Positions 16,864-32,877 of a stretch of DNA of 64,000 nucleotides are shown piece after piece. The DNA lies in contig JAFIFY010000136.1 of NCBI GenBank assembly GCA_020831765.1, forward strand, positions 1-64,000, read 5' to 3'. The translations under genes were made by a program, and so were the position numbers. This DNA is from Phycisphaeraceae bacterium (GTDB lineage Bacteria > Planctomycetota > Phycisphaerae > Phycisphaerales > Phycisphaeraceae). Position 1 is the stretch's first letter. Each line of letters starts with the position of its first letter. A model generated the notes under the pieces. The model was given only the letters and a program-made list of their open reading frames with translations. It ran no database searches and had not been told where the DNA came from.

Positions 16864-19800
16864 CTATTCAAACACGATTCGGGTTCCATCAAAACGCACG
16901 GTCCGGTCGCCGACCCGCACCCGGGCATCCAGACCTTCGCCTTGGACCGTTACCTCCGGGTGCCGGCCGTCTTTGGTGATGGTCAGCACGACAAAGTACT
17001 TTCCTTCGCCCTCGGCGAACAGGGATTTGCTGTGGATTCGGCTGACATTGCGCTTGTAGCGCATGACCTCCTGCCATCGCTCCTCGAACCGCATTGGCAC
17101 ATCGCCGGGTTCCACGAAAGTGCCCTGGAGACTGGCACCGTTCTCGCCGGTGATACGGAATCGCTGCCCGTCCACGGTGCAATCGTCGCGGTCCAGTGCC
17201 TGGGCACCGCTACCAATCACCTGTCCGGGGCGATACTCGATCACCTCGCCACGCCATGTCACGCCATCCGAACGCGTTCCATCCGTAACATCCGTCGCCC
17301 TGCCGATGGTCCGTCTGCCGCTGTCAAGCTGCCAGGCCCAGAGCGAGTTTTTGACACCGTCAACCTTGCCGACGCCGGTGATCTTGTCCACGATGACGAT
17401 CAGGGCCGGTGCGCCGCTTTTGCCGCTGTAATCCACACCGATCGACCGCAGGCCCGACAGGCCCGTGTCGGCGAAAGCGATCGGTCGTCGGACACTGCCG
17501 TAGCGCTCATAAAGCGGACCGTTCCCGCTCGATCCGGCATAGACGTCGGACATGTCGATGGTCAGCACGCCGGAACCGTCTTGCTCGGTTCGGGCGTATA
17601 CGACCTTACCGCAGGCACCGGTGTTGATTTCGGCTCCCGGCAGGAACACGAGGTTCTCGCCGAAATGGAAGGCGCCGGGGTTGCTCCAATGCTGGCCCAG
17701 GCCCGTGACGCGAAAGGTACCGGCATTGTCGCGCGTGGCCGCACCGGCGTCATAGGCGTTCGCCCAGGCCTGAACGAGGATTCCATTCGGGTCGTCCCAG
17801 TTATTGCGGAACCCGTGATACCCGAACTGGGGTGCCGACCAGGTAAGTGGCATGCCCTTGGCGGGGTGTTTCGGGGTCATGTGCATGGGGTAGTTGACGA
17901 ATACCCAGATCGGGTGGGTGTCATAATCGCCGTAGTTGCCATGAGTTCGGCCGGGACTTCGAACAAGCTTTTCCGCATCTCCGGGGCCTTGAACGCCCAG
18001 GTGACGGTTCCAGAACCAAAGTGCTGCCGGTTGCCACTCCTCGGGGATGATCGGGAACATGGCGGCGAAGAAATCGCCGGTCAGGTCGCGCGTTTCGTGA
18101 TAGACGTTGCGGATGTATAGGTCCGGCTCGCCAACGATCTCCTGCATGAGATCCTCGCCATCATCGCGATAGATGCGGCTGAACATCTTGAACGGCAGGT
18201 AATGGGTCACATCGTTCAGCCCGGAGACATTGCGACCCATCACGTTGAGATAAGCGGTGGCGTACTTGTTTGGACCCTCGTGTCCCATGGGGAACACGGA
18301 ACTGCCCTGGGCGCCGCCCGCTCCGATCCCCTGCTGGTAGTTCAGCCGCATCAGCATCCGTGTTCGCTCGAACAGCCTCGTGAATCCAACGTCCGCCCCG
18401 CCGCTGTGGCGCCACTCATCGTGATTGTGTTGCCACACCGTTAGTTGCTCTTCGTACCGGTTCCGGGCGGCTTCGATGCCCTCCCGCGCCTCCTCCTCTG
18501 AGACCTCAGCCAGACGAGGTTCCATGGCGATCACGCCCCAGGGATTCGTCACACCGATGCCCACCTGGACCATCATGGGGTAAAGGCCCGGCTCGATGCG
18601 GAAGTAGTCGTTCTCACGGAGGCGGACACCGCTCAGATAGACGACCGCATCGCTGTCGGTCCGCAAGCGCACCCACCGTGCCCGATCGTTGCGGATCACG
18701 GTGAAGAAGTAGCTCTTGCTGTGATACTCGCGATTGATCGCGGTGGTGATGTTCAGTTTGGTTCGTCCACCGGTGTGTCTGCCCTTCCAGAGGTGATTCT
18801 CGGCCATGACCTTGAACTCGGCGGTCTTGCCCTCGTGGCGGGCCATCGTGCCCACCTCCGGACGCGCCTTGGCCACACCGCCCAGATCGCCCAGGTGGTC
18901 GGTGTGGCGAGGCTGGAAGCCCCCGACAAAGATCCACTCACGTGGCATTTCGTCGCTGTCAAAGGCAAGCACCGGCACACCTTTGCCCGGCTTGTAATCG
19001 GCATCGGGCGAGACATTCGGGTCCTCTTCATTCATGGCCAGCGGGGCTGCGGGCTTCTGTGGCTCTGGCCCCTGTTCGCCCAGGATCGCCAGCGCACCCA
19101 TGGCCGCGCCGTAGTAGATGGTCCCCGGATAAGTCGAGGCCATGTGCCACTGAATCTCCCCATGCAGAAAACTGGGGTTATCCATCAGCCGGTTGCCCCA
19201 GTCGAGGATGTACGCCTCCACCTGCTTGCGAAAGTCCTCGTCCCAGGCGTCGTAGCTCATGTCGTATGCAAGCGCGACTTGCTCCAGTCGCCAGCCCCAG
19301 ACGCGTGAGCGGACGCCTTTACTGCCGGAATTGGTGTCTTCCATGTGCTTGACCGTGAGCGCTCTGGCCTGGTCGGCGTAATCCCGGTCACCGGTGAGTT
19401 GGTACTTCATCGCAAGGCCGGCGGCGGTGTTCATCCGCTCCATGGCCGCCCGGCCCAGAGGCGTTTCCATCCGCTGTCGAAGCTCCGGCAGGTCCCCCTT
19501 GCGGAACAATAACCGCGGATGCTCGCCCGCCTTGACGGACTTGCCAGCTTCCTGGCGCGGCAGCCAGTACCCGGTTGCGCGGCCATGGATGGGCTGGTCT
19601 CGGAACGTGCTTTCAAACCGGCCCTCGTAACCACCATTCTCAGCCGGTGAGAGCGTGACCTCGTAGATGGCCCTGCCGCCACGAACCCAGGCATCGCCCT
19701 GGATATTCATCTGCACGGTGAGTGAAAGGGAATCACCTTCGGCCTTGCTCGCGGTCACCAGGCCGGTGTGATGGGAGCGGTTGAAGTTTCCAGCCAACCC

Positions 19801-20013
19801 CCAGGCACGGCCCCAGTCGTCGCCGCTTCGGCTCAACCAGAGCAGCAGCGCCCTGTCGCGATCGCCGCCCGGCTCATCGCCGATGAACAGTGCATCTTCG
19901 AGCACCAGATGAAACTCGTCGGTTTCACCGAGTCCCGCCATGGTCGCCAGGGTTGGCTGCGCTGCCACAAGGCCCAACGCGGCCGCAATGAATAGGATCC
20001 AAAATCGATACAT
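16864..20013 (-). CDS. large exported heparinase-II/III-like protein, copy 2
   Basis: 1049 residues from the ATG at 20013 (MYRFW); a longer reading to 20088 adds 25 residues before an obvious signal peptide (ILFIAAALGLVAAQ). Order of parts: signal 1-20, beta module about 35-145, HPRLLFR at 165-171 opening a helical toroid region, a beta insert near 330-520 (MPREWIFVGGFQPRH), then a C-terminal sandwich ending DGTRIVFE. Copy 1 ends NRIVME, and the two align through most of their lengths with many gaps, indicating an old duplication. Predicted exported polysaccharide lyase or an inactive relative; substrate unknown. It follows the quinoprotein-like gene by 128 bp on the same strand. Confidence 0.68.
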   Translation of the reverse strand: MYRFWILFIAAALGLVAAQPTLATMAGLGETDEFHLVLEDALFIGDEPGGDRDRALLLWLSRSGDDWGRAWGLAGNFNRSHHTGLVTASKAEGDSLSLTVQMNIQGDAWVRGGRAIYEVTLSPAENGGYEGRFESTFRDQPIHGRATGYWLPRQEAGKSVKAGEHPRLLFRKGDLPELRQRMETPLGRAAMERMNTAAGLAMKYQLTGDRDYADQARALTVKHMEDTNSGSKGVRSRVWGWRLEQVALAYDMSYDAWDEDFRKQVEAYILDWGNRLMDNPSFLHGEIQWHMASTYPGTIYYGAAMGALAILGEQGPEPQKPAAPLAMNEEDPNVSPDADYKPGKGVPVLAFDSDEMPREWIFVGGFQPRHTDHLGDLGGVAKARPEVGTMARHEGKTAEFKVMAENHLWKGRHTGGRTKLNITTAINREYHSKSYFFTVIRNDRARWVRLRTDSDAVVYLSGVRLRENDYFRIEPGLYPMMVQVGIGVTNPWGVIAMEPRLAEVSEEEAREGIEAARNRYEEQLTVWQHNHDEWRHSGGADVGFTRLFERTRMLMRLNYQQGIGAGGAQGSSVFPMGHEGPNKYATAYLNVMGRNVSGLNDVTHYLPFKMFSRIYRDDGEDLMQEIVGEPDLYIRNVYHETRDLTGDFFAAMFPIIPEEWQPAALWFWNRHLGVQGPGDAEKLVRSPGRTHGNYGDYDTHPIWVFVNYPMHMTPKHPAKGMPLTWSAPQFGYHGFRNNWDDPNGILVQAWANAYDAGAATRDNAGTFRVTGLGQHWSNPGAFHFGENLVFLPGAEINTGACGKVVYARTEQDGSGVLTIDMSDVYAGSSGNGPLYERYGSVRRPIAFADTGLSGLRSIGVDYSGKSGAPALIVIVDKITGVGKVDGVKNSLWAWQLDSGRRTIGRATDVTDGTRSDGVTWRGEVIEYRPGQVIGSGAQALDRDDCTVDGQRFRITGENGASLQGTFVEPGDVPMRFEERWQEVMRYKRNVSRIHSKSLFAEGEGKYFVVLTITKDGRHPEVTVQGEGLDARVRVGDRTVRFDGTRIVFE

Positions 20014-20141
20014 GACTGTTGTCCTGATGGGTCTTGAAAATAAAGTCAGGTCAAGGAAACTGGCCGCGGATTCAAGTTCATGGTTCACTTCTCACGGAGC
20101 GCGGCAACAAGCCACACTCTTGAATCACGTGGTTGAACGGG

Positions 20142-22904
20142 TCAGTCCAGCTTCCTCAGGTCGAAGGCGTAGATACCGTCGCCGCCGCGGACGATGAGGC
20201 GTCCGTCGACAATGGCGTCGCTAATTTGCGTGTGGTGATAGCCCCGGGAGGTGATGATGGGGATGTCCCAGACATCGCTGGTGCGGCGGAACTCATCGCC
20301 GGCATCGATCCAGCGATAGTTGTTGCGGTCAAACATCACCCGATCACCCATGCCGACGGGGAAGCTCATGCTGCCGAGACGGCCGAGGTCTGCCAGCATC
20401 TTGAACTCACCTGTTTTCAGGTTGACGCGGTAGAAGTGATCATGATCACTGCCCTCCTGACCAAAATTATAGGAGTGACCATTGTTAATCATCAACAGCC
20501 GTCGGCCGGTTTTGTCCTGTTTCTTTTCAAGCGTCCACAGGCGCTCAAGACGGTCGGCGTGGATGCGGAATCCGGCGAGGTGGTAGTCATCGCCATTCTC
20601 CGCCTCCACGATCGCGGTGAGGATGTCTCCCTCGACAGGAACCGGATAGGCACGGGGAATGCGTGCGACTTCCTTCTGCCAAAGCACTTTGCCTTGCGCG
20701 ACGGTCACGGCGCTCAGGGCCTCTTGATTGTGAACAATCACCACCGGCTCGCTATGGCCGCGCCACAGCGAGGGGGTGTTCTGGCTGGCGATCACACCGT
20801 CGGCCCGCCAGCGTTTCTCGCCGGTACTGGTGTCGATGGCGACGAGGTTGCCCCGAAAATCGGTGCCGACCAGCAACCCATCAATGACGATGCGGGTGCC
20901 GGCATGGAAGCTGCCGGCACCCGGCTGACTGTTTTCTCGCAGAGCTTCCGCTCGGTTCCGCTGCATCCCTTCGTAAAACCCGGGCAGTCCGGATTCCCAC
21001 AGGACTTGCCCGGTGTTGGCGTCCATCGCCCACAACTTTCCGGCGGATCCGACGGCGAAGACTTTGCCCTCACCCACGGAAACCGTCGAGCCGGGGGCTT
21101 CTTTCCAGGTGTTGTACAGGTTCAGCCCCGTCTGCTCGAAGCGCTGCTTCCATAGCGTGGCGCCGGTTTCGAGGTCGATGCAGATCACCACATCATCGGC
21201 AAGGATCTTCCACGATTCGTCGAGCTGACGACGGTAGCTGCTGGCAACACTCTGAGCGGTGGAGGCCTCGCCGGACGGCTCGTAGTAATGGAGATAGACC
21301 TTGCCGTCGTAAACCACCGGCGATCCGGCGCCACCCCCGGGGCCGCCCCGCAGGTTTCGGCCAATGTTGCTGGTGCCGTATCGCTGAATCTGTGATCGGG
21401 CCGGCGGGGTTCGTTCACTCTTCCACAGCATGCGAGCCCGAGAAAAATCCTCAATGAGGGGGGTGTTGGTGTCCGCCGCGCTCATCGAGTGCTTGGGTCC
21501 ATGCCAGGTCGGCCAGTCCACTTTCGGCGCTGGATTGGCCGCACGCAGTTCCTCGACAGGAACTTGCCGACCGGTGACCGCGCCGCCTGCGCTGCGCGTT
21601 CGGTCGATTCGCACTTCGTATTCGCCGGTGCTGTTGCCATCGTCAACGCGAAGGTCGAATTTGTAGGCGTGCTCCTTGTTGCCCCATTCTTCCGGATAGG
21701 CGGGATTATTCGGATCGATCAGCAGCGAGCCGTGCAGGCGGTCGCCCTCGAGACTGACCTCTGAATCAAGGGTTGCAGTAGGGAAATTGACCCCGCCGCC
21801 GCGGTAGATAGGCTCGATCAGTGCGCTGGCCAGTTGCCCATCCTTCATCTCGAACACCGCAGTCACCTCCCGATCCATGCCTTGCGACGGTTTGAACGTG
21901 ATGCGATGAACGGCATTGGCAGGGTCAGTGGCACCGGCGTTAACGAGTTGGGCATGCCCATCGACCTTGTGAGTGGTCTCGCGTGTGCCATGGTAGCCAT
22001 GGGGTCGCTCGTGATACACCGTTGTACTGCCCTCGATCATGTTGTGCTCGACCTCGGCCTCGAAGTCAAAACGATATACCCCACTCCAGGGATAGCTAGC
22101 CTCGATGTCGATGGTCACCTTTCCCTTGATCCGCTTGCCGTCAAAGCTCACCTCGGCGTCAATCTCATCCCGAAGCCTCCAAGGATTACCGCGGACCGGG
22201 GTGGCATCGATCGACACCAGTTCATCGCCTTTGATCACGATATCGAGATACACCTCACGTTGCCAGTTGGCCGAGGGGCCGCGCAGCGGTTGCCCCATGT
22301 TGATGCGGAACCGCACAGGCTTGTCAGTCCGGATGGCCGCCTCTAAAGTCCCTTCGGCCGGTCCGGAGTATTCATCGCCGGATCGCAGGAAACGGATTTG
22401 ATCCATCGTCACCACCGGTGTGTCATGGTCGAGCGTCTCGTCCGTAAAGATGTAGAAGCCGTGACCATAGGCGTGTCCAAGCTCCAGCCCGTAGCGGGTC
22501 TCGTGCTTGCCGGTGATCCTGCCGGACTCATCCACGACGGCGTCGATTTCAATACTGAGGAAGCGGTTGTTTCGACGGCCGCGGACAAACGTGACATCCA
22601 CGAGACCGCGGATGGCCCCGTCACGCAGGGAAAGCTGCGACAAACTCACGTGGCTCGATACCGTTCGGCCATCCACTTCGGCCCAGCCCTGCAGAAACCG
22701 GCCGTCCTGATAGTTCAGGTGAAGCGTCATCGCCCCCCCGGCGGCAAGATCGGTTTCAGTGAGGGTGATGACGAAGCGCTGAAAATCTTCGGGCAGGTGC
22801 TCCGCCCCGGCGGACATGGCCGGACGAGAACAGGCCGCGGTTGTGATCGTCAGGAGAACAAGTGCTAAAAGCGCGGGTACTGCTCGCGATTTCGGGGTGG
22901 CCAT
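20142..22904 (-). CDS. PQQ-like beta-propeller lipoprotein with three beta modules
   Basis: 920 residues. An N-terminal signal ends in a lipobox TAAC (Cys25), so the mature protein should be lipid-anchored. Residues about 88-136, 247-295 and 378-430 are three copies of a beta-rich module also seen once in each heparinase-like protein downstream. From about 465 (WPTWHGP) to the end is a quinoprotein-type propeller with repeat features such as GKVYLHYYEP, LETGATLWKQRF, MDANTGQVLWESG and STGEKRWRADGV. Such propellers in planctomycetes are usually binding or assembly platforms rather than dehydrogenases. It is the first gene of the minus-strand set, preceded by a 553 bp gene-free region that probably holds the promoter. 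Confidence 0.8.
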   Translation of the reverse strand: MATPKSRAVPALLALVLLTITTAACSRPAMSAGAEHLPEDFQRFVITLTETDLAAGGAMTLHLNYQDGRFLQGWAEVDGRTVSSHVSLSQLSLRDGAIRGLVDVTFVRGRRNNRFLSIEIDAVVDESGRITGKHETRYGLELGHAYGHGFYIFTDETLDHDTPVVTMDQIRFLRSGDEYSGPAEGTLEAAIRTDKPVRFRINMGQPLRGPSANWQREVYLDIVIKGDELVSIDATPVRGNPWRLRDEIDAEVSFDGKRIKGKVTIDIEASYPWSGVYRFDFEAEVEHNMIEGSTTVYHERPHGYHGTRETTHKVDGHAQLVNAGATDPANAVHRITFKPSQGMDREVTAVFEMKDGQLASALIEPIYRGGGVNFPTATLDSEVSLEGDRLHGSLLIDPNNPAYPEEWGNKEHAYKFDLRVDDGNSTGEYEVRIDRTRSAGGAVTGRQVPVEELRAANPAPKVDWPTWHGPKHSMSAADTNTPLIEDFSRARMLWKSERTPPARSQIQRYGTSNIGRNLRGGPGGGAGSPVVYDGKVYLHYYEPSGEASTAQSVASSYRRQLDESWKILADDVVICIDLETGATLWKQRFEQTGLNLYNTWKEAPGSTVSVGEGKVFAVGSAGKLWAMDANTGQVLWESGLPGFYEGMQRNRAEALRENSQPGAGSFHAGTRIVIDGLLVGTDFRGNLVAIDTSTGEKRWRADGVIASQNTPSLWRGHSEPVVIVHNQEALSAVTVAQGKVLWQKEVARIPRAYPVPVEGDILTAIVEAENGDDYHLAGFRIHADRLERLWTLEKKQDKTGRRLLMINNGHSYNFGQEGSDHDHFYRVNLKTGEFKMLADLGRLGSMSFPVGMGDRVMFDRNNYRWIDAGDEFRRTSDVWDIPIITSRGYHHTQISDAIVDGRLIVRGGDGIYAFDLRKLD

Positions 22905-23457: not shown

Positions 23458-24174
23458 TCAATCGGCTTGCTCCAGTGTGTCCAGGACCTGGTTGAAGTGG
23501 AACCAGTTGCCGCTGGCAACCTGTCCTCCGGCATGCATAATCGTGTCCAGCGCTTCCTGGCTGATGACAAAGCGAGCACTGCCATCGCCAGATAAGACGC
23601 TCCATCCCGGCGCCTCGATGTGCGATGTGGCCTCGGGCGAGTGGATGACATCGGTGATGAGGATGCGGCCCGGTTCAAGATCGCGCATCGTCTGATAGGT
23701 GCGCGGCACGCCGCGCCGTTCCTGGCGAGGATTGAAGTAGTAGCTCAGTCGAATCCCCGTGTCGCCGAACCCGGGCGGCCTGGCCAACTTCGGCCACGGT
23801 TCATAGTCCTTGAGTGTGAAGCCGACGGTATTGAAGCTGGGGCAGTACAGCACCCGTGGTTCGGTCAGATGCCCGCTCTCCCACATGTGGCCGAGATTGC
23901 GCGGCCCATCGCGGTGATGATGCCACCAGTATGCTTCATGCGGATTATTGAGCGAATCATCCGGCGTATGGCGGATATGCGGCAGACGGCCTTTATGGTC
24001 CTGGGCAAAGGCCAGGACCGCGATGCCCTGTTGATGGACGTTGGAAAGGCACTTCACTCGCTGGGCCGCGACCCTGATCCCAGCGAGGGCCGGCAACAGG
24101 AGTCCGATCAGAAGGGCGATGATGGAGATGGCGACGAGTAGTTCGATCAGCGTGAAGCCTCGTGCACGTGCCAT
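23458..24174 (-). CDS. pseudopilin-like protein with type II/IV N-terminal methylation motif
   Basis: 238 residues from the ATG at 24174. It begins MARARGFTLIELLVAISII, the prepilin peptidase site (G before F, Glu at +5) followed by a long hydrophobic helix. The remainder (CPSFNTVGF, SYYFNPRQ, SGDGSARFV) resembles the planctomycete/verrucomicrobial pseudopilin-like family related to DUF1559, often present in many copies per genome. These are exported and processed by the type II secretion/type IV pilus peptidase, but their role is not defined. It lies 179 bp downstream of a PEP-CTERM gene on the same strand, and is probably expressed with it from the operator-bearing promoter near 25.3 kb. 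Confidence 0.85.
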   Translation of the reverse strand: MARARGFTLIELLVAISIIALLIGLLLPALAGIRVAAQRVKCLSNVHQQGIAVLAFAQDHKGRLPHIRHTPDDSLNNPHEAYWWHHHRDGPRNLGHMWESGHLTEPRVLYCPSFNTVGFTLKDYEPWPKLARPPGFGDTGIRLSYYFNPRQERRGVPRTYQTMRDLEPGRILITDVIHSPEATSHIEAPGWSVLSGDGSARFVISQEALDTIMHAGGQVASGNWFHFNQVLDTLEQAD

Positions 24175-24353
24175 GGGGCTTCCTTGGATGCCCAGAGGAT
24201 CAGTGGTTGTCCCACCGGTAGGTTCCGGGTTCGGACTCAAAGGCGGGTGGCCGCCCGCGGGGCTGGCCGGAAAAGGAACCAGCCAAGTGGTAACCTGGCT
24301 GGCTCGGGGTGCATATTTATGCGTCAGTGGCCGGCATGGATCGGTCCTGTTCG

Positions 24354-25199
24354 TCACGCCCTCCGCCGCGTCAGCATGAGCAGGCCGCCCAGCCCCAAGA
24401 GCGCCAGCGAAGCGGGCTCGGGGATGTAGGTGACCTCAAGGTTGTCGATGGTGAAGTTCGTGCTCCGATTTTGGATGCCGAACCAGATTTCGTCGATCTC
24501 GATCGCGGACGTGGCCGTGATGGTGTGATCGAAGCTGCCCAGATCACGCGGTCCGTGGACGCCGCTGAGGCGCATCTCAGTCGCACTGATCCGCTCGACC
24601 CGGAACGTGGCCTGATTGCGCTCATCATCGAGCAGCAGATCCGATCCGATGTTAGGGGTGCCGGGGGCTGTGCTGGTGGCGTAGAAGTGGTTGGTGCCCA
24701 CAACAGCGTCCACGTTGAGCCTGGAGTTCATGTCGTCGCCGGGTGAGTCGGCCTGGTTGTACCCCGAAAGGAAGTACCCCACGGCATCGGCGTCAACGGC
24801 CGCCCCCTGGAAGAACCCGTAGCGCAGCACGCGGTTGCCTCGGGTATGACCCTCGGTGGTGAAGTCGAATGTCATCTGGATGAAATCGCCGACATTGGCC
24901 AGTGAGATCGTCTGGGGCAGCGCTGCAGTGATGTAAATGCTGCCACTGCCATCGCCGAGGTGCAGGGCGCCGTCATCCAGCGTGCCGACAGACAGCGTAT
25001 GGCTGCTGGTTGCGGTCGCCGGGCCGTAGTCGAGGGTTGACTTCAAGACCCCGTTGTCCATCACGGCGTTGGTAAAGTCATCGGTGAACAGCACGGCACC
25101 ATGGGCCGGGCCGACACCACCCATGAGCGGCATGGCCAGCAGTCCGGCGAAAGCGCCCATCACGAGACATTTCGAGTTCGTTGCCTTTTTCATGTTCAT
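24354..25199 (-). CDS. PEP-CTERM sorting-domain protein
   Basis: 281 residues from the ATG at 25199 (or 25193); longer readings to 25307 lack coding character. Signal peptide about 1-30 (FAGLLAMPLMGGVGPAHG). The body is beta-rich (jelly-roll-like, LFTDDFTNAVMDNGVLKS) and may bind carbohydrate. The C-terminus is a textbook PEP-CTERM tail: IPEPASLALLGLGGLL followed by a basic end (TRRRA), which exosortase systems recognise. The exosortase is not in this window. Operator copy B lies 139 bp upstream of the start. It is followed by the pseudopilin gene in the same direction. Confidence 0.85.
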   Translation of the reverse strand: MNMKKATNSKCLVMGAFAGLLAMPLMGGVGPAHGAVLFTDDFTNAVMDNGVLKSTLDYGPATATSSHTLSVGTLDDGALHLGDGSGSIYITAALPQTISLANVGDFIQMTFDFTTEGHTRGNRVLRYGFFQGAAVDADAVGYFLSGYNQADSPGDDMNSRLNVDAVVGTNHFYATSTAPGTPNIGSDLLLDDERNQATFRVERISATEMRLSGVHGPRDLGSFDHTITATSAIEIDEIWFGIQNRSTNFTIDNLEVTYIPEPASLALLGLGGLLMLTRRRA

Positions 25200-25527
25200 C
25201 CTCTTTTCTCCCGAACGGGAAGCTCCTTTGGACGCGCTCCCCCGATGAGAGCGCATATCGCGGCAGTCGAGCCGAGTGGCTCGCGGATTCACCGCATCAA
25301 GAAACATACCCGGTGCTTAAGTATTTGGATAGTCAAAACGTGTCAAAATATGATCACAGCGTGCCAAATGGATCGAGTTTCTTTTTGGCTGGTTACCAGA
25401 TGGCGTTAAACCACCGTCGTCCGGCGCAGATGCGGCAAGGGGATGTGCCGGGACTTCCACGTCACCAGCCTACGTCGGTGCGCACCGATACGGGTTTGAT
25501 CCGATCGGTTCGTGTTGCCGCGCTGAT
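25200..25527. other. intergenic region carrying operator copy B
   Basis: 328 bp between the GH67-like gene (ends 25528) and a PEP-CTERM gene (starts 25199), both minus strand. Besides operator B it is AT-richer than its surroundings around 25300-25390, as expected for a promoter. A TTGACT on the minus strand at about 25332-25337 is a possible -35 element without a well-spaced -10. No gene is supported. Confidence 0.5.
25339..25366 (-). promoter_or_regulatory. operator copy B (direct repeat at 21 bp)
   Basis: CGTGTCA at 25339-25345 and CGTGCCA at 25360-25366 lie 21 bp apart, with an AT-rich centre containing ATATGATCA. Copies A (32698-32725) and C (27679-27706) share both half-sites and the centre. 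A two-turn direct repeat is typical for AraC-family activators. Copy B lies 139 bp upstream of the PEP-CTERM gene starting at 25199. Confidence 0.75.
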
Positions 25528-27369
25528 TTACTCGACTTCGAGAGGGAACGTCTTGCCGCCCATGCCGGTTTCGAATCCGCGGGTGCGTTCCGGCCAGCCT
25601 TCCTCGACGATCCATCGCCAGTAGCGATCGGCGGTCTGGGCATCGCTGATCCATTCCCACTGCCCGGTTGGCGGCTTGATGGGATAGTCGCGGATCTCCT
25701 GGGCCACCTGCTTCATCCGCAGCAGGCCCTGGCGCGTGGTCTGTGTGACAAACTCCGTCTGGTGCTCCCCGCCGCGGCACCATGTTCGAAAGCCCCAGTA
25801 CGCCGCGGCGGCGCCTCGATACAGCCGCGCGGTGAGCAGGGTGTGATTGAAGTGGTGGTATAGCGACTCGTAATCCTCGTCTGAAAGATGCGGTCGGGCC
25901 TGCCGGATGTGATCAAGCGACCGCTCGGCCAGATCGACACCGTGCTCCTTCTGCGTGATGATGTGGCGGAGATACTGCTCGTTCATCCGCTCAACTTCCG
26001 TCAGCCAGCCGGCCTCGACGACATCGGGGATTTCCGAGAGGTGGGCCCCGCCCCGCTTGGCCCAGGGCGGTGCGATGTGGTCGATGACATCCTTCCAGTA
26101 GTGAAACTCGCGGTCCACGCCGTGGCCGACCCTGGCGATGGGCGGATCGATCCATTTGCCTGAAACATGGCGGGCATAGCTGGAGCGATACGGATCAAAG
26201 TCCATTCGCGAATGATCGGCCACGTTGGTGCCGAGCGTATACATGGTCGCGGTGACGATATCGAAGGCGTTTTCGAACGCCGCGCGGACATGCGGGTAGG
26301 CCGCTTCACCGTAATGCTCGACGATGAACTCCCGATAGATACGATCCGCATCCACACTTCGGTCTTCGAAGTATCGCTTCAGCGCCAGGAGGTTGATCTC
26401 GGACGGGCGGTCGATGATGCGCGTATCGCCGTATCGGTCGGTGCGGGCCACATAGCCGACGATGTGATCGCGCTGAAGGAAATCACGCCAGCGGTCCAGG
26501 ATGTACCCTGGCCAGGTGTTGGCGATCATGCCCTGACCGTTGAACTCGCCGGCGGTATCGAACTCGACGATCGTCGGCCGGGGGATCGCGCCGGCGAAGC
26601 GATTACTCGGATGCGTCAGGAAGAAATCATGGGGCGATTCCTTCATCATGAGGCGGATCTCCGGCCGCTCGTACAGCTCGATCGCCCCGACGATGTTCTC
26701 ATACTCCGCATCATCGTAGGAGAATGTGCGGGCGTAGAGATTGAGTCCCCGTTCACCGATGACCACATCCGCGACGGCGTTGACGGCCGCGGCGAGCTTC
26801 TCCTGGTTGGTGAGCATCTTCTCCGAATGCTGGCGCTCGACGCGAGCGCCGGTTTCGATGAAGGTCAGGATCAGGCCCTGGATGTTGGGAGCCTTGTCGA
26901 GCATCTGGCGATAGTCATCCTTGAACCACGCCCAGAATTCGGGGTTATCCAGGTCGATCGTGCGATTCGGGCCGGTTCGAAACCGCTCGGGGTAGTAACC
27001 AAGGCCATAAAGCGTCCGGTCCCAGAGCACCACCTCCTGGATGCCGGCCTCGTGCGCGGCCTCGGTCATTCGTTGAGCCAGCTCGAGCCGACGCGGATCA
27101 CGCACGTGACGCAGGTCGTGGATCACGTGATGAGAAATCTGCAGGTGATTGATGTCGTACGCCGGTGCCCGCTCGATCACACGAAGGCCGTCCGGCAGAC
27201 TGTCGGAAAGGATGGTCCACCCGCGAACAGGTTGACCCTTGGCCAGCGGTGCGGGTTTGAAGGGTGCCTCGGCCGGAGTTGCGCGGCAGCCGGAGGACAG
27301 AGGAGCAAGCATCAGCAGCATGAGCATAACCAGGTAAGAGAAGGAAAGCGGGTACGGCCTGATCGGCAT
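25528..27369 (-). CDS. exported lipoprotein resembling GH67 alpha-glucuronidase
   Basis: 613 residues. The signal peptide ends in SSGC (Cys28), a good lipobox. The body looks like a (beta/alpha)8 glycosidase. The segments MMKESPHDFFLTHPSNRFAG, VEFDTAGEFNGQGM and the following WPGYILDRW region resemble in order the GH67 alpha-glucuronidase pattern (IKNGPxDF, LEFQxTQEYxGQ, then the catalytic-half helices), which removes 4-O-methyl-glucuronate from xylan oligosaccharides. Two candidate acids are Glu and Asp in IVEFDTAGEF, but catalytic identity is not established. GH115 or an unassigned family is possible. It is divergent from the XylR-like regulator gene, with operator copy C between. Confidence 0.55.
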   Translation of the reverse strand: MPIRPYPLSFSYLVMLMLLMLAPLSSGCRATPAEAPFKPAPLAKGQPVRGWTILSDSLPDGLRVIERAPAYDINHLQISHHVIHDLRHVRDPRRLELAQRMTEAAHEAGIQEVVLWDRTLYGLGYYPERFRTGPNRTIDLDNPEFWAWFKDDYRQMLDKAPNIQGLILTFIETGARVERQHSEKMLTNQEKLAAAVNAVADVVIGERGLNLYARTFSYDDAEYENIVGAIELYERPEIRLMMKESPHDFFLTHPSNRFAGAIPRPTIVEFDTAGEFNGQGMIANTWPGYILDRWRDFLQRDHIVGYVARTDRYGDTRIIDRPSEINLLALKRYFEDRSVDADRIYREFIVEHYGEAAYPHVRAAFENAFDIVTATMYTLGTNVADHSRMDFDPYRSSYARHVSGKWIDPPIARVGHGVDREFHYWKDVIDHIAPPWAKRGGAHLSEIPDVVEAGWLTEVERMNEQYLRHIITQKEHGVDLAERSLDHIRQARPHLSDEDYESLYHHFNHTLLTARLYRGAAAAYWGFRTWCRGGEHQTEFVTQTTRQGLLRMKQVAQEIRDYPIKPPTGQWEWISDAQTADRYWRWIVEEGWPERTRGFETGMGGKTFPLEVE

Positions 27370-27712
27370 TTTCGAGTTTCCAGAGTTGTTGGTGAAGTTC
27401 GTCAGTTGGGTAACCCTTCAGGTCCAGTGGTGACGGCGTCCCGGGTTGTGCGCGGCGATGCCGCCGCTGGCACAGATCGTGTCCGTGAGCACCAAGGGAG
27501 CGGCGCGGCGACGCCGAGGCCCCGGAGGGCACGCGGTTCCTGAGCAACCGCCACCCGGAGACGATCGCATGGGTGGCGCCAGGTTGGGCGGTGTGGATCG
27601 CTGGCACTGGCCGACTCATCCACCTCCAGTTCTCGCCACGGCATATTACCGTCTCCCGCAGGCCGCGGCATGGCGGAGCGTGCCACAATATGATCATGGC
27701 ATGCCAGGCCCA
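27370..27712. other. divergent region between GH67-like gene and regulator, with operator copy C
   Basis: 343 bp without a supported gene. It should contain the promoters for the regulator (plus strand, ATG 27713) and for the lipoprotein (minus strand, ATG 27369). Operator copy C sits at its right edge, directly before the regulator start. The rest is GC-rich and shows no clear -35/-10 pair. Confidence 0.5.
27679..27706. promoter_or_regulatory. operator copy C, next to the regulator start codon
   Basis: CGTGCCA at 27679-27685 and CATGCCA at 27700-27706, 21 bp apart, with the same AT-rich centre as copies A and B. It ends 6 bp before the ATG at 27713; another ATG, at 27701, lies inside the second half-site. 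Its place suggests autoregulation of the XylR-like gene and possible control of the divergent lipoprotein gene 309 bp away. Confidence 0.75.
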
Positions 27713-28924
27713 ATGAACAGCCCGGAGCCGGGCCGGACCGCCTCCCCCGCTCGAGTCGCCTTGCGCCGCGTACTGGTGGCGTTCGATCCCGGCCGATGGC
27801 GCTTCCGCGGTGCGCTGCGTGGGATCAACCGCTTTGCCGCCGGTCACGGGGAGTGGGATTTGATGATCGTGCGTTACAGCCGCGCCCTGTGGCCGCTGAG
27901 CGGCGCGGCGTATGACGTCGATGGCATGTTCATCGATGCCGCGCCCGATTCGCTGGAACTGGCCGGCCGCCTCGGTGTCCCCTGCGTCACGCTTTCGGCC
28001 CACGCGGCGCTCGAAGCCATCCCGACGGTGGGTCATGATGATGAGGCGATCGGTCGGCTGGCGTTCGAGACGTTGGAGGGGCGTGGGCTGCGGCGATTCG
28101 GCCTCTTTACCACCGGCGAGACGCACCGCCTGGATGTTCATCGCTTCAGTAGTGCGTTTCAGCGGCATGTCGAGCAGGCCGGGCGAGCGCTTGAAGTGTT
28201 CGTGATTGGCCCTCGGACACAGCAGCGTGGCCACTGGCTGCTCGATGACCAGATCGCCGATCTCGCCGATTGGCTGCGAGCGAGGGCGCACCCATTGGGC
28301 CTTCTGGCGATCGATGATGAGCATGCGTGGCGCGCGGCCGAAGCCGCTCGGTTGGCCGGGCTGAACGTGCCCGGTGATGTGTGCATCCTTGGGGTCGGCG
28401 ATGACGACTGCCTGTGCGAATCGTGCCAGCCGACGCTATCGAGCATCGCCCTGGACTACGAGCAGTTTGGATTTGAGGCGGCAAGGCTGCTTCACACGCT
28501 GTTGACCCATGACCAACAGCCCACGCCCCGCCCCGTCCCGCCGCTCGGTGTCATCGAGCGCGCCAGCACGGACATGCTGGCCATCGAAGACCGTCTGGTG
28601 TCCGATGCCCTGGCGATCATCCGCGATCACGCCGAGCGGCCGCCCGACATTGATGACCTGGCGGTTCGACTGCACACATCCCGCCGTACGCTGTATCGCC
28701 GCTTCGTCGCCGCCCTGGGCTATACGCCCGGCGAAGCACTCCGACGGACGCGACTGGAGGCAGCGCGGCGGTTGATCGTGGGGACCGATCTGAAACTCGT
28801 GACCGTCGCCGACCGCGTCGGCTTCCCGAGCATCTCGCAATTGAGCCGTGACATTCAGCGCGAATACGGCGCCCGTCCCAGCGTGCTCCGCCGCCGCGCC
28901 CAGCGACACCATCCGGCGAAATAA
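27713..28924 (+). CDS. XylR-like transcriptional regulator (LacI-type sensor plus AraC HTH)
   Basis: About 403 residues from the ATG at 27713 (an in-frame ATG at 27701 lies within operator C). Residues about 15-280 form a periplasmic-binding-protein/LacI-like sugar sensor (RRVLVAFDPGRWRFRGALRG; ILGVGDDDCLCESCQPTLSS), as in E. coli XylR. The last 100 residues are two AraC helix-turn-helix units (DDLAVRLHTSRRTLYRRFVA; ADRVGFPSISQLSRDIQREYG). Members bind direct repeats and activate sugar-catabolism genes. The nearby 21-bp direct repeats in front of itself and two PEP-CTERM operons make those the likely targets. The inducer is unknown. No strong Shine-Dalgarno precedes the start. Confidence 0.85.
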   Translation: MNSPEPGRTASPARVALRRVLVAFDPGRWRFRGALRGINRFAAGHGEWDLMIVRYSRALWPLSGAAYDVDGMFIDAAPDSLELAGRLGVPCVTLSAHAALEAIPTVGHDDEAIGRLAFETLEGRGLRRFGLFTTGETHRLDVHRFSSAFQRHVEQAGRALEVFVIGPRTQQRGHWLLDDQIADLADWLRARAHPLGLLAIDDEHAWRAAEAARLAGLNVPGDVCILGVGDDDCLCESCQPTLSSIALDYEQFGFEAARLLHTLLTHDQQPTPRPVPPLGVIERASTDMLAIEDRLVSDALAIIRDHAERPPDIDDLAVRLHTSRRTLYRRFVAALGYTPGEALRRTRLEAARRLIVGTDLKLVTVADRVGFPSISQLSRDIQREYGARPSVLRRRAQRHHPAK

Positions 28925-29119
28925 ACCAGATCCGTTCCGATCACCGAGGGCATGGGGTGGCTTCGCTCGCGCATGATCGGCGATGGGGGTCGGAGCAACG
29001 ATAGAAGCTCAAACTCGCCTGTGGGTGAACCGTTGTCCGTCGAAAACCCCCGGAATCGAATCGTGCGGCGGTCACGGGGAGATCACCCGGGGTCGGGCAG
29101 GCTGGTCGGAAGCGGGGGG

Positions 29120-30721
29120 TTACCGACGGCGCCGACTCAGCCCAAGCAAGCCGCCGATGCCCAGCAGCGCCAACGACGTCGGCTCAGGTATGGCGTCGAA
29201 GCCGGCAGCGCCGTCTACCGCGGGCATGTAATTCTGAAAGAGGATGAAGGCGTCGGCAAGGCCGACCCTGCCGTCTCCGTTGAAGTCGCCCATGGTCCAG
29301 TCCGCGTCGGTCGAACCCAGATTGGCTTGAAGAATGGCCAGGTCGAGGTCGTTGACGATCAGGTCGCTGTTGGCGTCGCCGAAGATGGGCGCTGCATAGA
29401 TGGCGGTGTTGTAGCTCGTCCAACCGGACATGGACCCTTCCAGCCACAGCGCCTTGATGGGATTGGGTGTGTCATCCAATCGCCAAGGGGTAATGACCGT
29501 CGAGATACGGCCGACATCGGAGATTGCGCCCAGCGACTCCCATGTCTGCCCATTGTCGGTTGTGTACATGCGATGAACCTGGGACTGGCTGCCGGTGGCG
29601 TTCGTGGCTACGGCGACATAAAGCAGGTTGGGGTCATCCTGATCAATGGCGATGCTGTAGTTCTTTCGCTGCGGGTTGTTGTCCCAGCCAAGGGCAAGTT
29701 GCGCCACCTGGCTTGAGGACCATTCGCCGTTATCGTCCACGGTGGCCCAGTAGCCGAAATGGGGCGGTGAGCCTCCGGACTCGAACCCGTTGTAGTCCTG
29801 AACGGCCATGGTGACATAGGGTTTGCCGTCCTTGACCGACAAGTCGGCCCAAAGCGCCCGCTGCTGATTGTTTCCGTCGTTGCCCCAGTGCCAGATCGTG
29901 TCGAACAGATGGGTATCGGCGCTGGTCAACTCCGGGAAGTCGCCGAGGTTGAAGGTGTGCGTGCCATCGGCCCGGTAGAAACCCTGCGTGTTGATGTCGT
30001 AGCGAACGTAGTAAATCCCTTCGACCCGACCGATACTCCGTCCGACCAGACTCTCACCCCAGCCGACCCGTGCCCCGACCATATGTATGCTGTCACCTTC
30101 GATGTAGGCTTGGGTGTAGCTACGGTCCTGGCTCAACCCCCTACCGAGCCCGAAAAGCCGATCGAACTGGGTGAAGGTGCTTCCGCCGTCGGTCGAGGTC
30201 CACATACCGGTCTGGCGCCTGCCCGAGAGGTAGTTGACCACCTGATACAGATCACCCGTACTTTCATGCACCATGGGAAAGAACTGCCGGCCCTGATTGA
30301 AGCCGGAGTTCGTGCTGGATTGAATCGGTCCGAAGCTGGTGACATCCCCGGGGTTCTCACTGACTCGCCAGTACGTTCGTCCATCGTTGTAGACCGCGCC
30401 CTGATTGAATGGGACGTGGATGTGGCCGTCGGGCCGGACCATGATGGCTCCAGCCTGGTGAAGGTCGCCGTAGGTCTGGTAGACCAGTCCCGTCTCGATG
30501 TTGCCCGTGGCCACCTCGTAGGATTTGGCGAAGATGTCGCCACCGGAGGTGATGTAATTCATGAACAGCTTGCCATCGGCATAGACGGCATGCGGCCCGT
30601 TGTAACCCCAGGAACCATTCGGTGCGAGCATGGTTGGTGTCTGCGCACTGGTCTGGACGGCAATCGCAAGGGAAGCCGCATAGGCGAATGCGAAGTACAG
30701 CTTGGTGGAGGCGGTGATCAC
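29120..30721 (-). CDS. BNR-type propeller with dockerin-like pair and PEP-CTERM tail
   Basis: 533 residues from a GTG at 30721. GAGGAG at 30731-30736 lies 9 nt before it, and the ATG-type reading to 30889 would overlap the upstream gene. Signal peptide about 1-28 (LYFAFAYAASLAIAVQTSAQ). Residues 35-410 resemble the BNR_4 propeller group, which includes some ulvan lyases and sialidase-like proteins (WTSTDGGSTFTQF, MYTTDNGQTWESLG). Then two dockerin-like Ca-binding repeats (GDANSDLIVNDLDLAILQ; GDFNGDGRVGLADAFILFQ), and finally IPEPTSLALLGIGGLL with RRRR. Extracellular or surface-sorted. Third gene of a probable operon after two PEP-CTERM genes. Confidence 0.8.
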   Translation of the reverse strand: MITASTKLYFAFAYAASLAIAVQTSAQTPTMLAPNGSWGYNGPHAVYADGKLFMNYITSGGDIFAKSYEVATGNIETGLVYQTYGDLHQAGAIMVRPDGHIHVPFNQGAVYNDGRTYWRVSENPGDVTSFGPIQSSTNSGFNQGRQFFPMVHESTGDLYQVVNYLSGRRQTGMWTSTDGGSTFTQFDRLFGLGRGLSQDRSYTQAYIEGDSIHMVGARVGWGESLVGRSIGRVEGIYYVRYDINTQGFYRADGTHTFNLGDFPELTSADTHLFDTIWHWGNDGNNQQRALWADLSVKDGKPYVTMAVQDYNGFESGGSPPHFGYWATVDDNGEWSSSQVAQLALGWDNNPQRKNYSIAIDQDDPNLLYVAVATNATGSQSQVHRMYTTDNGQTWESLGAISDVGRISTVITPWRLDDTPNPIKALWLEGSMSGWTSYNTAIYAAPIFGDANSDLIVNDLDLAILQANLGSTDADWTMGDFNGDGRVGLADAFILFQNYMPAVDGAAGFDAIPEPTSLALLGIGGLLGLSRRRR

Positions 30722-30730
30722 GGTCGAAAG

Positions 30731-30736
30731 CTCCTC
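30731..30736 (-). promoter_or_regulatory. ribosome binding site that sets the GTG start of the BNR/PEP-CTERM gene
   Basis: Reads GAGGAG on the minus strand, 9 nt before the GTG at 30721. This is a much better site than any in front of the longer reading, and it places the start just ahead of a good signal peptide. Confidence 0.7.
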
Positions 30737-30854
30737 AAAAGGCTTGCCGTCAGGGTGTTGGCCATGGTCGCCCCGACGTCGATGGGCAATCAACAAAAAC
30801 GGGCGGAGACGAAATGTCTTCCGCCCGACTTTGTTGGTGCTTGTATCGGTCAAT

Positions 30855-31646
30855 CTAAGGCCTGCGACGAAGCAGCAGCAGGCCGCCAACGCTCAGCAGG
30901 GCGAGGCTGGCCGGTTCGGGGATCAGAAGCGTGACGTTGTCGATGAAGATATTTCCTTCGGCATTGGTCGCCGTTGCTCCGCCGAAGTAAATACGGAAAT
31001 CAACGGTATCGGTCGCGGTGATCCCAAGGTCCGCCGAATATCGGTTCCAGGAAAAAACCGCGCTCGCGGGCCTGATGACATTGAGCGAGCCGTTGTCGCC
31101 GAAATCGATGGCCGCATCAGCCGGATCGTCGATAAATCCCTGTCCTTCACCGAAAACCGTCTGCGTGGAAAAACCATCGGTGCTGTAGGCAAAACGGACG
31201 TGGTCGGGGCCGCTGCCACGCCAGCCGATATCCAGCACGAGTGAATCCAGGTGAATCGATTCTCCTGGATCAAGCGTAATGCTGAAGGTGAAGGCGTGGG
31301 TGTCAATATCTGAAAATACCCGTCCGAACGCTCGACCATTGGCACCCGACCAGGCCGCCTCGCCCAGACTCTGGATTGGGTCGCCTCCGGCGTAACTCGT
31401 ACCATCGGCGTCGATCCCTTTGCCGCCACTTTGCCCCCCGTTGGATGGCGAAAAAGTGAAGCCCACGGCCGAGGCGCTGACCCCGGGCGCTGTCGAAGTC
31501 GCATTCAAATTGCTGGCGAATTGCCACTGAGCCACGGTATCCGGGCCGGGCGTCAGGTCGACCACCGCCGCACCAGCGGCACCGGACATGCCGACGCACG
31601 TCCCCGCCATTACGGTCAACATATGCTTGAGTCTGAGTCTGCTCAT
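30855..31646 (-). CDS. PEP-CTERM protein, tandem paralogue 1
   Basis: 263 residues from the ATG at 31646 (MSRLRLK), with GGAG 10 nt upstream; the longer reading to 31670 is not needed. Signal peptide about 1-28 (LTVMAGTCVGMSGAAGA), then VVDLTPGPDTVAQWQF and a beta-rich domain, ending IPEPASLALLSVGGLLLL plus RRRP. Its start and body align with the gene immediately upstream (MSRLNIK, VIDLTPGSNTVAQW), so this is a tandem duplication that has diverged. Function is unknown; the beta domain may bind carbohydrate or build surface structures. 64 bp separate the pair, so one transcript is likely. Confidence 0.85.
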   Translation of the reverse strand: MSRLRLKHMLTVMAGTCVGMSGAAGAAVVDLTPGPDTVAQWQFASNLNATSTAPGVSASAVGFTFSPSNGGQSGGKGIDADGTSYAGGDPIQSLGEAAWSGANGRAFGRVFSDIDTHAFTFSITLDPGESIHLDSLVLDIGWRGSGPDHVRFAYSTDGFSTQTVFGEGQGFIDDPADAAIDFGDNGSLNVIRPASAVFSWNRYSADLGITATDTVDFRIYFGGATATNAEGNIFIDNVTLLIPEPASLALLSVGGLLLLRRRP

Positions 31647-31710
31647 GGTTCCATTTCTCCTTCGATCCATAAAAGTCTAAACTCTGTTCTTCACGCCTGT
31701 ATAGGTCGCT

Positions 31711-32553
31711 CTAAGGCCGTCGACGAAGCAAGAGCAGGCCGCCAACGCCCAGCAGAGCGAGGCTGGCTGGCTCGGGGATGACTTGGCCTGTGATGGTGAG
31801 GTTTCCAAGCAGGAGGCTGTTTGCTGGATCCGTACCGGAACCTCCGCCAGCGGCATAGATGCGAAAGTAAACATCACCGGTGAGGTTCTGGCCCTCAGTG
31901 CCTTCAAGGTCATCGTGGACAAACCGATTCCACGAACTGCCAAAATTGCCGGATCCCTTCACCATGTTGAGGGAGCCATCGGCACCGTACCCCATCCCGG
32001 CGTCGCCTTCATTGTCGATAAAGCCGTCGCCGCCACCGATGAACACCTCACTGGTGAACGAGGAATCAAGGCTGTAAACGACTCGAAAAGCGCTGGGGCC
32101 ACTGCTTCGAGGGCCGAAGTCGGCCACGACGCTCTCGAGGTTGAGCCAGTAACCATCCGCGATGGAGATGCTGAACTCCAGCGCCTTCGTGGCCGTTGCG
32201 ATATCCGACTCGTCCCAGGCTCGCGAAAAGTAATATCCCGACTCACCGACCACATCTCGAAAGTCCACGTTCTGCACCGGACTCGGCGGATCACCGTAGG
32301 TGCCGCCATCAGCCGAGGGCCTGTGGTTCGTGCTGAAGCCGGAGCCGGCCGGACTGAAGGTTAAGCCCACATTGCTCGCGGATGCGACGTTGTCTCCGAT
32401 GGTTGTCGCGCTCAGGCTGCTCTCGAGCGTCCACTGCGCCACAGTGTTCGAACCGGGCGTCAGGTCGATCACCCCAGCTTGGGCTGCGCCGGACATGCCG
32501 ACGCACGTCCCCGCCATCACGGTCAACACATGCTTGATATTGAGTCTGCTCAT
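31711..32553 (-). CDS. PEP-CTERM protein, tandem paralogue 2
   Basis: 280 residues from the ATG at 32553 (MSRLNIKHV), with AAAGGAG in the leader. The signal peptide LTVMAGTCVGMSGAAQAG is nearly identical to the next gene's, while the middle has diverged. It ends IPEPASLALLGVGGLLLL plus RRRP. Operator copy A lies 144 bp upstream, almost the same distance as copy B from the other PEP-CTERM operon. It is the first gene of a probable three-gene unit (this gene, paralogue 1, BNR protein). Exosortase-dependent surface or extracellular placement is expected from the tail; the molecular role is unknown. Confidence 0.85.
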   Translation of the reverse strand: MSRLNIKHVLTVMAGTCVGMSGAAQAGVIDLTPGSNTVAQWTLESSLSATTIGDNVASASNVGLTFSPAGSGFSTNHRPSADGGTYGDPPSPVQNVDFRDVVGESGYYFSRAWDESDIATATKALEFSISIADGYWLNLESVVADFGPRSSGPSAFRVVYSLDSSFTSEVFIGGGDGFIDNEGDAGMGYGADGSLNMVKGSGNFGSSWNRFVHDDLEGTEGQNLTGDVYFRIYAAGGGSGTDPANSLLLGNLTITGQVIPEPASLALLGVGGLLLLRRRP

Positions 32554-32877
32554 CGTTCCTTTTCTCCTTTGATCCACGAAAAAATTACATATGGCCCTCA
32601 CGCTGAGAGGCCTACCGCGACTACGGAGACCGAGCGGCCTCCTCCAATTGCGGCGAAATAGACTCTACACTAGGTTGTGGCGTGGAGATTGGCGTAGCGT
32701 GCCAAAATATGATCATGACGTGCCAAGGCGACCGAAAAAGGTGCCGCCGGGCCGGCTTGCGGCTTCCCGGATGCACTCGCGCAGCTTGCTGATCGCGTTC
32801 GGCCCCCGGCTGATGGCACTTCCGCGGAAGACTTTCGGAGATTCCGGGGGGCCTGGCACTTCCCGGGGGCGGGGTGT
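32554..32877. other. intergenic region with operator copy A and GC-rich repeat
   Basis: 324 bp between the PEP-CTERM gene and the end of putA. The left part should be the PEP-CTERM promoter; a TAGAGT on the minus strand at about 32661-32666 could be a -10 element without a good -35, as expected for activator dependence. Right part: TTCCGGGGG at 32842-32850, a member of the intergenic GC-rich repeats, just after the putA stop codon. No gene is supported. Confidence 0.5.
32698..32725 (-). promoter_or_regulatory. operator copy A (direct repeat at 21 bp)
   Basis: Two perfect CGTGCCA half-sites at 32698-32704 and 32719-32725, 21 bp apart, with an AT-rich centre containing ATATGATCATGA. Nearest gene is the PEP-CTERM gene starting at 32553 on the minus strand, 144 bp away. 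Probable binding site of the XylR-like regulator encoded at 27.7-28.9 kb. Confidence 0.78.

Follow-up and report, generated by a model that had tools for sequence, protein, structure and literature searches.

A predicted XylR-type regulon with 21-bp direct-repeat operators in a PEP-CTERM gene cluster of a Phycisphaeraceae bacterium

In a window of 64,000 nucleotides, the whole stretch of DNA analysed here, we found three copies of a 28-bp element grouped around the gene for a XylR-like regulator in a Phycisphaeraceae bacterium. We consider it highly probable that the three elements are the operators of this regulator, which would bind them as a dimer, probably activating transcription from copies 1 and 3 and limiting its own synthesis at copy 2. 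Read from the sequence, the locus is best explained as an ordinary XylR-type local regulon over a carbohydrate and surface-protein cluster that includes PEP-CTERM genes.

Results

Three copies of a 28-bp element and their occurrence in the genome

The predicted operators all lie on the plus strand and all are intergenic. Copy 1 (25339-25366; CGTGTCAAAATATGATCACAGCGTGCCA) reads CGTGTCA-N14-CGTGCCA, copy 2 (27679-27706; CGTGCCACAATATGATCATGGCATGCCA) reads CGTGCCA-N14-CATGCCA, and copy 3 (32698-32725; CGTGCCAAAATATGATCATGACGTGCCA) reads CGTGCCA-N14-CGTGCCA, confirming the original prediction of three elements at these positions with half-sites 21 bp apart. Any two copies agree at 23 to 25 of 28 positions, and the AT-rich centre of the element contains the perfect palindrome TGATCA. 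In all three copies, the half-sites recur with a 21-bp period as a direct repeat spaced by about two helical turns, as in operators of the AraC family, so both the spacing and the half-site support the earlier assignment to this operator type.

We searched the genome of the organism (G000; 4,714,536 bases, 98% complete) with the pattern CGTGYCAMAATATGATCAYRRCRTGCCA, allowing up to 3 mismatches, and recovered these three sites and no others. The reversed pattern, used as a control, gave no genome match at up to 3 mismatches. Random occurrence throughout the genome, the check proposed with the original prediction, was thus not seen. A matrix derived from the three copies scored them at 48 to 52 bits in a scan of the window, and the next best site reached 16 bits. 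Pairs of half-sites were more widespread: YGYGYMA pairs at 21 bp had 15 exact matches in the whole genome versus 10 in the reversed control, and 84 CGTGCCA pairs were counted when as many as 2 mismatches were allowed, versus 106 in the control. Since such pairs are not rare genome-wide, half-sites alone are insufficient to define the regulon, and the AT-rich centre or a place beside the regulator is needed to do so. The complete 28-bp motif had no match in 40 relatives, as expected given that no orthologue of the regulator was found.

A different 28-mer, CGCGTCAGATTGGGGGGCGTCCGTGCCA, occurs in identical form at C61:2970-2997, C80:7919-7946 and C157:74604-74631 and has no relation to the motif of the window; it is probably part of a repeated element.

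A full-length XylR homologue beside the middle copy

The gene at 27713-28924 (plus strand) encodes a regulator of 403 amino acids in which a LacI-type sensor (Peripla_BP_3, residues 119-286, E=1.2e-29) is joined to an AraC-type DNA-binding domain (HTH_18, residues 316-395, E=2.4e-19); no LacI helix-turn-helix was reported. Residues 18-391 align to residues 26-402 of Escherichia coli XylR (4fe7; E=1e-33), making the protein a full-length homologue. The domains and the homology to 4fe7 together uphold its earlier description as a XylR-like AraC/LacI hybrid. The same genome encodes 12 homologues with 29-37% identity to it, and many more are found in relatives, while no close orthologue was present among 400 genomes of its order (best identity, 34-37%).

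Position of the copies and their predicted targets

Copies 1 and 3 begin 140 bp and 145 bp above the starts of two minus-strand PEP-CTERM genes, at 25199 and 32553, respectively, and the distances of 139 and 144 bp given in the original prediction therefore hold. Copy 2 covers positions -34 to -7 relative to the regulator ATG at 27713. Its earlier assignment to the beginning of the regulator gene was correct as far as it went, but the same copy is also part of the intergenic region that separates the regulator from a divergent minus-strand gene (25528-27369) for a 613-amino-acid protein with a lipoprotein signal, and its orientation toward that gene is the same as that of copies 1 and 3 toward theirs. 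The 613-amino-acid protein has no relative in Pfam, NCBIfam or the PDB. A simple scan found no sigma-70-like promoter close to copies 1 and 3 on the minus strand.

The genes below copy 1 run on the same strand and encode a PEP-CTERM protein, a prepilin-type protein, a PQQ-like beta-propeller protein and two heparinase-like proteins. The PEP-CTERM protein (24354-25199, minus strand; 281 amino acids) ends in IPEPASLALLGLGGLLMLTRRRA and scores over the TIGR02595 cut-off and just under the Pfam cut-off. Its gene overlaps that of the prepilin-type N-methylation protein (23458-24357, minus strand), and the two are likely carried on one transcript. A lipoprotein-like protein with a PQQ_2 beta-propeller (20142-22904, minus strand) is a possible further target by virtue of its strand. 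Another possible target is the 1,074-amino-acid heparinase/DUF4962-like protein at 16864-20088 (minus strand), whose match is weak and below the cut-off.

Below copy 3 lies a run of three PEP-CTERM genes, all on the minus strand. The first (31711-32553) and second (30855-31646; TIGR02595, 17.9 bits against a cut-off of 16) are tandem paralogues, with an operator copy upstream of the first but not of the second. The third encodes a BNR_4 protein with a dockerin and a PEP-CTERM signal (29120-30721, with an estimated GTG start at 30721 in a reading frame that opens at 30889), for which comparison with the PDB returned nothing significant besides dockerin-like matches. The signal peptides of the tandem paralogues, MSRLNIKHVLTVMAGTCVGMSGAA and MSRLRLKHMLTVMAGTCVGMSGAA, are nearly the same. 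Four C termini in the window combine a PEP motif, a hydrophobic stretch and a basic tail, and the genome encodes two exosortases and gives 91 PEP-CTERM profile matches, as befits a PEP-CTERM/exosortase system.

Judging by its domain types, the cluster appears to be a locus for carbohydrate degradation whose products are anchored at the surface, and no xylose isomerase or kinase was found among its annotated neighbours. Paralogous heparinase-like proteins of about 1,000 amino acids stand beside XylR-like regulators at several places in the genome (13775-20088 on the minus strand of the window, L048 4098-7328 and L053 6159-9116) and share a C terminus like EGLDSRVRVGxRTVRFDG. This recurrence suggests repeated cassettes of a regulator plus an enzyme.

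Proposed mode of action

The regulator would act as a dimer, each of whose AraC-type DNA-binding domains contacts one of two CGTGYCA half-sites; a distance of two helical turns places these on the same face of the DNA. Ligand binding by the sensor domain would probably activate the PEP-CTERM transcription units of the minus strand from copies 1 and 3. The domain type and the gene neighbourhood suggest that this ligand is a sugar or an oligosaccharide set free from the polysaccharide handled by the locus. Copy 2 abuts the start codon of the regulator gene, so at this site the protein would hold down its own transcription; it may also act on the divergent lipoprotein gene. We infer binding and transcript boundaries from the sequence, and activation at copies 1 and 3 with self-limitation at copy 2 from the position of the sites and by analogy with XylR and XylRA.

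An unlikely variant of this scheme keeps the same regulator and makes it mainly a repressor, released by its ligand as in LacI-like logic. The LacI-type sensor would suit such a protein, and copy 2, directly before the regulator start codon, is in a repressing position. Copies 1 and 3, however, sit 140-145 bp above start codons and not on one, and both XylR and Vibrio XylRA are activators (PMC12125979).

A 21-bp half-site rule upstream of homologous regulators

If the element is a XylR-like operator, the genes of homologous regulators should likewise be preceded by direct repeats of a related half-site with equal spacing. We fixed a half-site, YGYGYMA, after viewing the upstream regions of a few paralogues and counted pairs with at most 1 mismatch at spacings of 9-60 bp between -250 and +40 of each regulator start. 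A repeat at 21 bp was present upstream of 24 of 84 regulators, whereas the counts for the 51 other spacings averaged 2.98 and never exceeded 7. With the regulators viewed when choosing the motif removed from the first set, the count was 9 of 38 versus 1.27. A hold-out set of 40 regulators, retrieved once the half-site was already settled, gave 10 at 21 bp (other spacings: mean, 1.37; maximum, 4), whereas control tiles of equal length from the same loci had the repeat in 12 of 806 cases (P ~3e-10). Dropping three of four near-identical relatives (L026, L027, L031 and L085) left 21 of 81. In several loci, the repeats are placed and oriented like copy 2, for example at -35 (L044), -54 (L041), -45 (L086) and -50 (L090).

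Two other searches were negative. A spacing test without a half-site model, in which the wrong side of minus-strand regulators was read, showed no clear peak at 21 bp, and when the surroundings of 12 paralogues and 8 relatives were searched for multiple near-identical 28-bp copies, only coding or low-complexity repeats came up. In the four near-identical relatives, ACGCAA-N14/15-TGCGCAA recurs as an operator-like block some 40 bp upstream of the start; the block is partly palindromic, so its orientation is ambiguous.

The family-wide rule and the clustering of the sites bear on whether the regulator at 27713-28924 is the cognate protein at all. With twelve paralogues in the genome, and with a TGATCA palindrome at its centre of the kind that dimeric repressors from a different family could use, the element could in principle be bound by a regulator encoded elsewhere and be close to this gene by coincidence. 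We regard this as very improbable: the three sites span only 7.4 kb around the regulator gene, random placement would put two further sites this close to the first with a chance of about 1e-5, and neither this clustering of all three sites nor the recurrence of the 21-bp half-site rule upstream of homologues would be explained. Hardly credible is a third possibility, that the three copies have no regulatory role and were left behind by duplication of a promoter segment or belong to a small dispersed repeat, for although the tandem PEP-CTERM paralogues at 31711-32553 and 30855-31646 attest to duplication in this region, the 40-bp flanks of the three copies agree at only 9-21 of 40 positions, identity ends at the motif edges so that no longer duplicated stretch is indicated, the 4.71 Mb searched hold no further copies, and the second paralogue lacks one.

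Recognition helix and half-site

The first recognition helix is SRRxLExRF in most homologues of the regulator at 27713-28924. All 23 other regulators with a 21-bp repeat have Glu in this helix, and the repeat was found for 23 of 67 regulators with Glu versus 0 of 16 with Asp, Gln, Leu or Thr (Fisher P=0.004, uncorrected for relatedness). The regulator of the window is alone in having Tyr in the helix (SRRTLYRRF) and CGTGCCA instead of TGCGYMA as its predicted half-site. This one case is consistent with co-variation, and Tyr and CGTGCCA may belong together.

PEP-CTERM genes beside XylR-like regulators

Using a limit of 1.5 kb, which was our own choice, we found a PEP-CTERM gene near 6 of the 13 XylR-like regulators in the genome (1.0 expected). 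The excess persisted when the regulator of the window was left out (5 of 12; P=0.0014) and was weaker when the limit was widened to 4 kb (P=0.012). Across six relatives with measured PEP-CTERM density, 9 of 28 regulators stood beside a PEP-CTERM gene, against 1.2 expected. At two paralogue loci of the same genome (C170 and C145), the regulator and a PEP-CTERM gene point away from each other and flank a 21-bp repeat.

The enrichment supports the proposed PEP-CTERM regulon in part. The targets at the locus form a wider carbohydrate-degradation and surface-protein cluster, with heparinase-like, BNR_4 with dockerin, pseudopilin, PQQ-like beta-propeller, lipoprotein and PEP-CTERM types, and not PEP-CTERM genes alone.

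Discussion

The type of regulator and the geometry of its operators are already known. E. coli XylR (4fe4, 4fe7) is homologous in its sensor and DNA-binding domains over the whole length of the protein. XylR sites have been described as AT-rich direct repeats (PMC12125979), whereas the half-sites here are CGTGYCA and no xylose genes are seen in the cluster. The closest parallel in layout comes from Vibrio, where a XylR-like activator has several direct-repeat sites in one polysaccharide locus, with binding and ligand measured (PMC12125979). Here, too, one XylR-like regulator has several direct-repeat sites, in this case predicted, within its own polysaccharide locus. The Vibrio targets are xylanases, transporters and xylose genes; those predicted here comprise unclassified proteins of carbohydrate type alongside PEP-CTERM surface proteins. 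A 21-bp period is also found in the XylS/Pm system of Pseudomonas putida, where the 15-bp direct repeats bound by a dimer of XylS, an AraC-family protein, have 6 bp between them (PMC5481539). Unlike the present regulator with its LacI-type sensor, XylS carries an AraC/XylS effector domain, and its sites consist of TGCA and GGTA boxes.

For PEP-CTERM genes, the known regulation is of another kind. Sigma-54 control via PrsK/PrsR, with -24/-12 motifs, has been reported only in Proteobacteria (PMC1569441), and an RpoN-dependent PEP-CTERM gene has been reported as well (PMC9850573). Both PrsK/PrsR and the system proposed here place a shared cis-regulatory site above PEP-CTERM genes, but the former is a two-component, sigma-54 system, whereas in the latter a one-component regulator of the XylR type would act through 21-bp direct repeats. 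A literature search that covered few subscription journals found no work linking XylR-like regulators to PEP-CTERM genes. The original suggestion that the arrangement had not been described thus stands for its PEP-CTERM part only, a multi-site XylR-like activator being known from Vibrio (PMC12125979). The PEP-CTERM link and the family-wide 21-bp code look new, and of these the code is the more general result.

More speculatively, XylR-like regulators might control PEP-CTERM proteins throughout this bacterial family, dozens of paralogues each using its own version of the 21-bp repeat, with Glu in the helix reading TGCG and Tyr going with CGTG. Surface proteins would then be coupled to the polysaccharide at hand, in a counterpart of the sigma-54 PrsK/PrsR control of Proteobacteria. 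We offer this wider picture tentatively and think it rather doubtful as a whole.

The paper that defined the PEP-CTERM system expected more regulators and DNA motifs outside the sigma-54 class (PMC1569441), and the locus described here provides a concrete candidate regulator-operator pair for PEP-CTERM genes. For many XylR-like regulators of these uncultured bacteria, the 21-bp half-site rule would allow operators to be assigned, and operators assigned in this way would in turn yield predictions of the carbohydrate clusters and surface proteins under each regulator.
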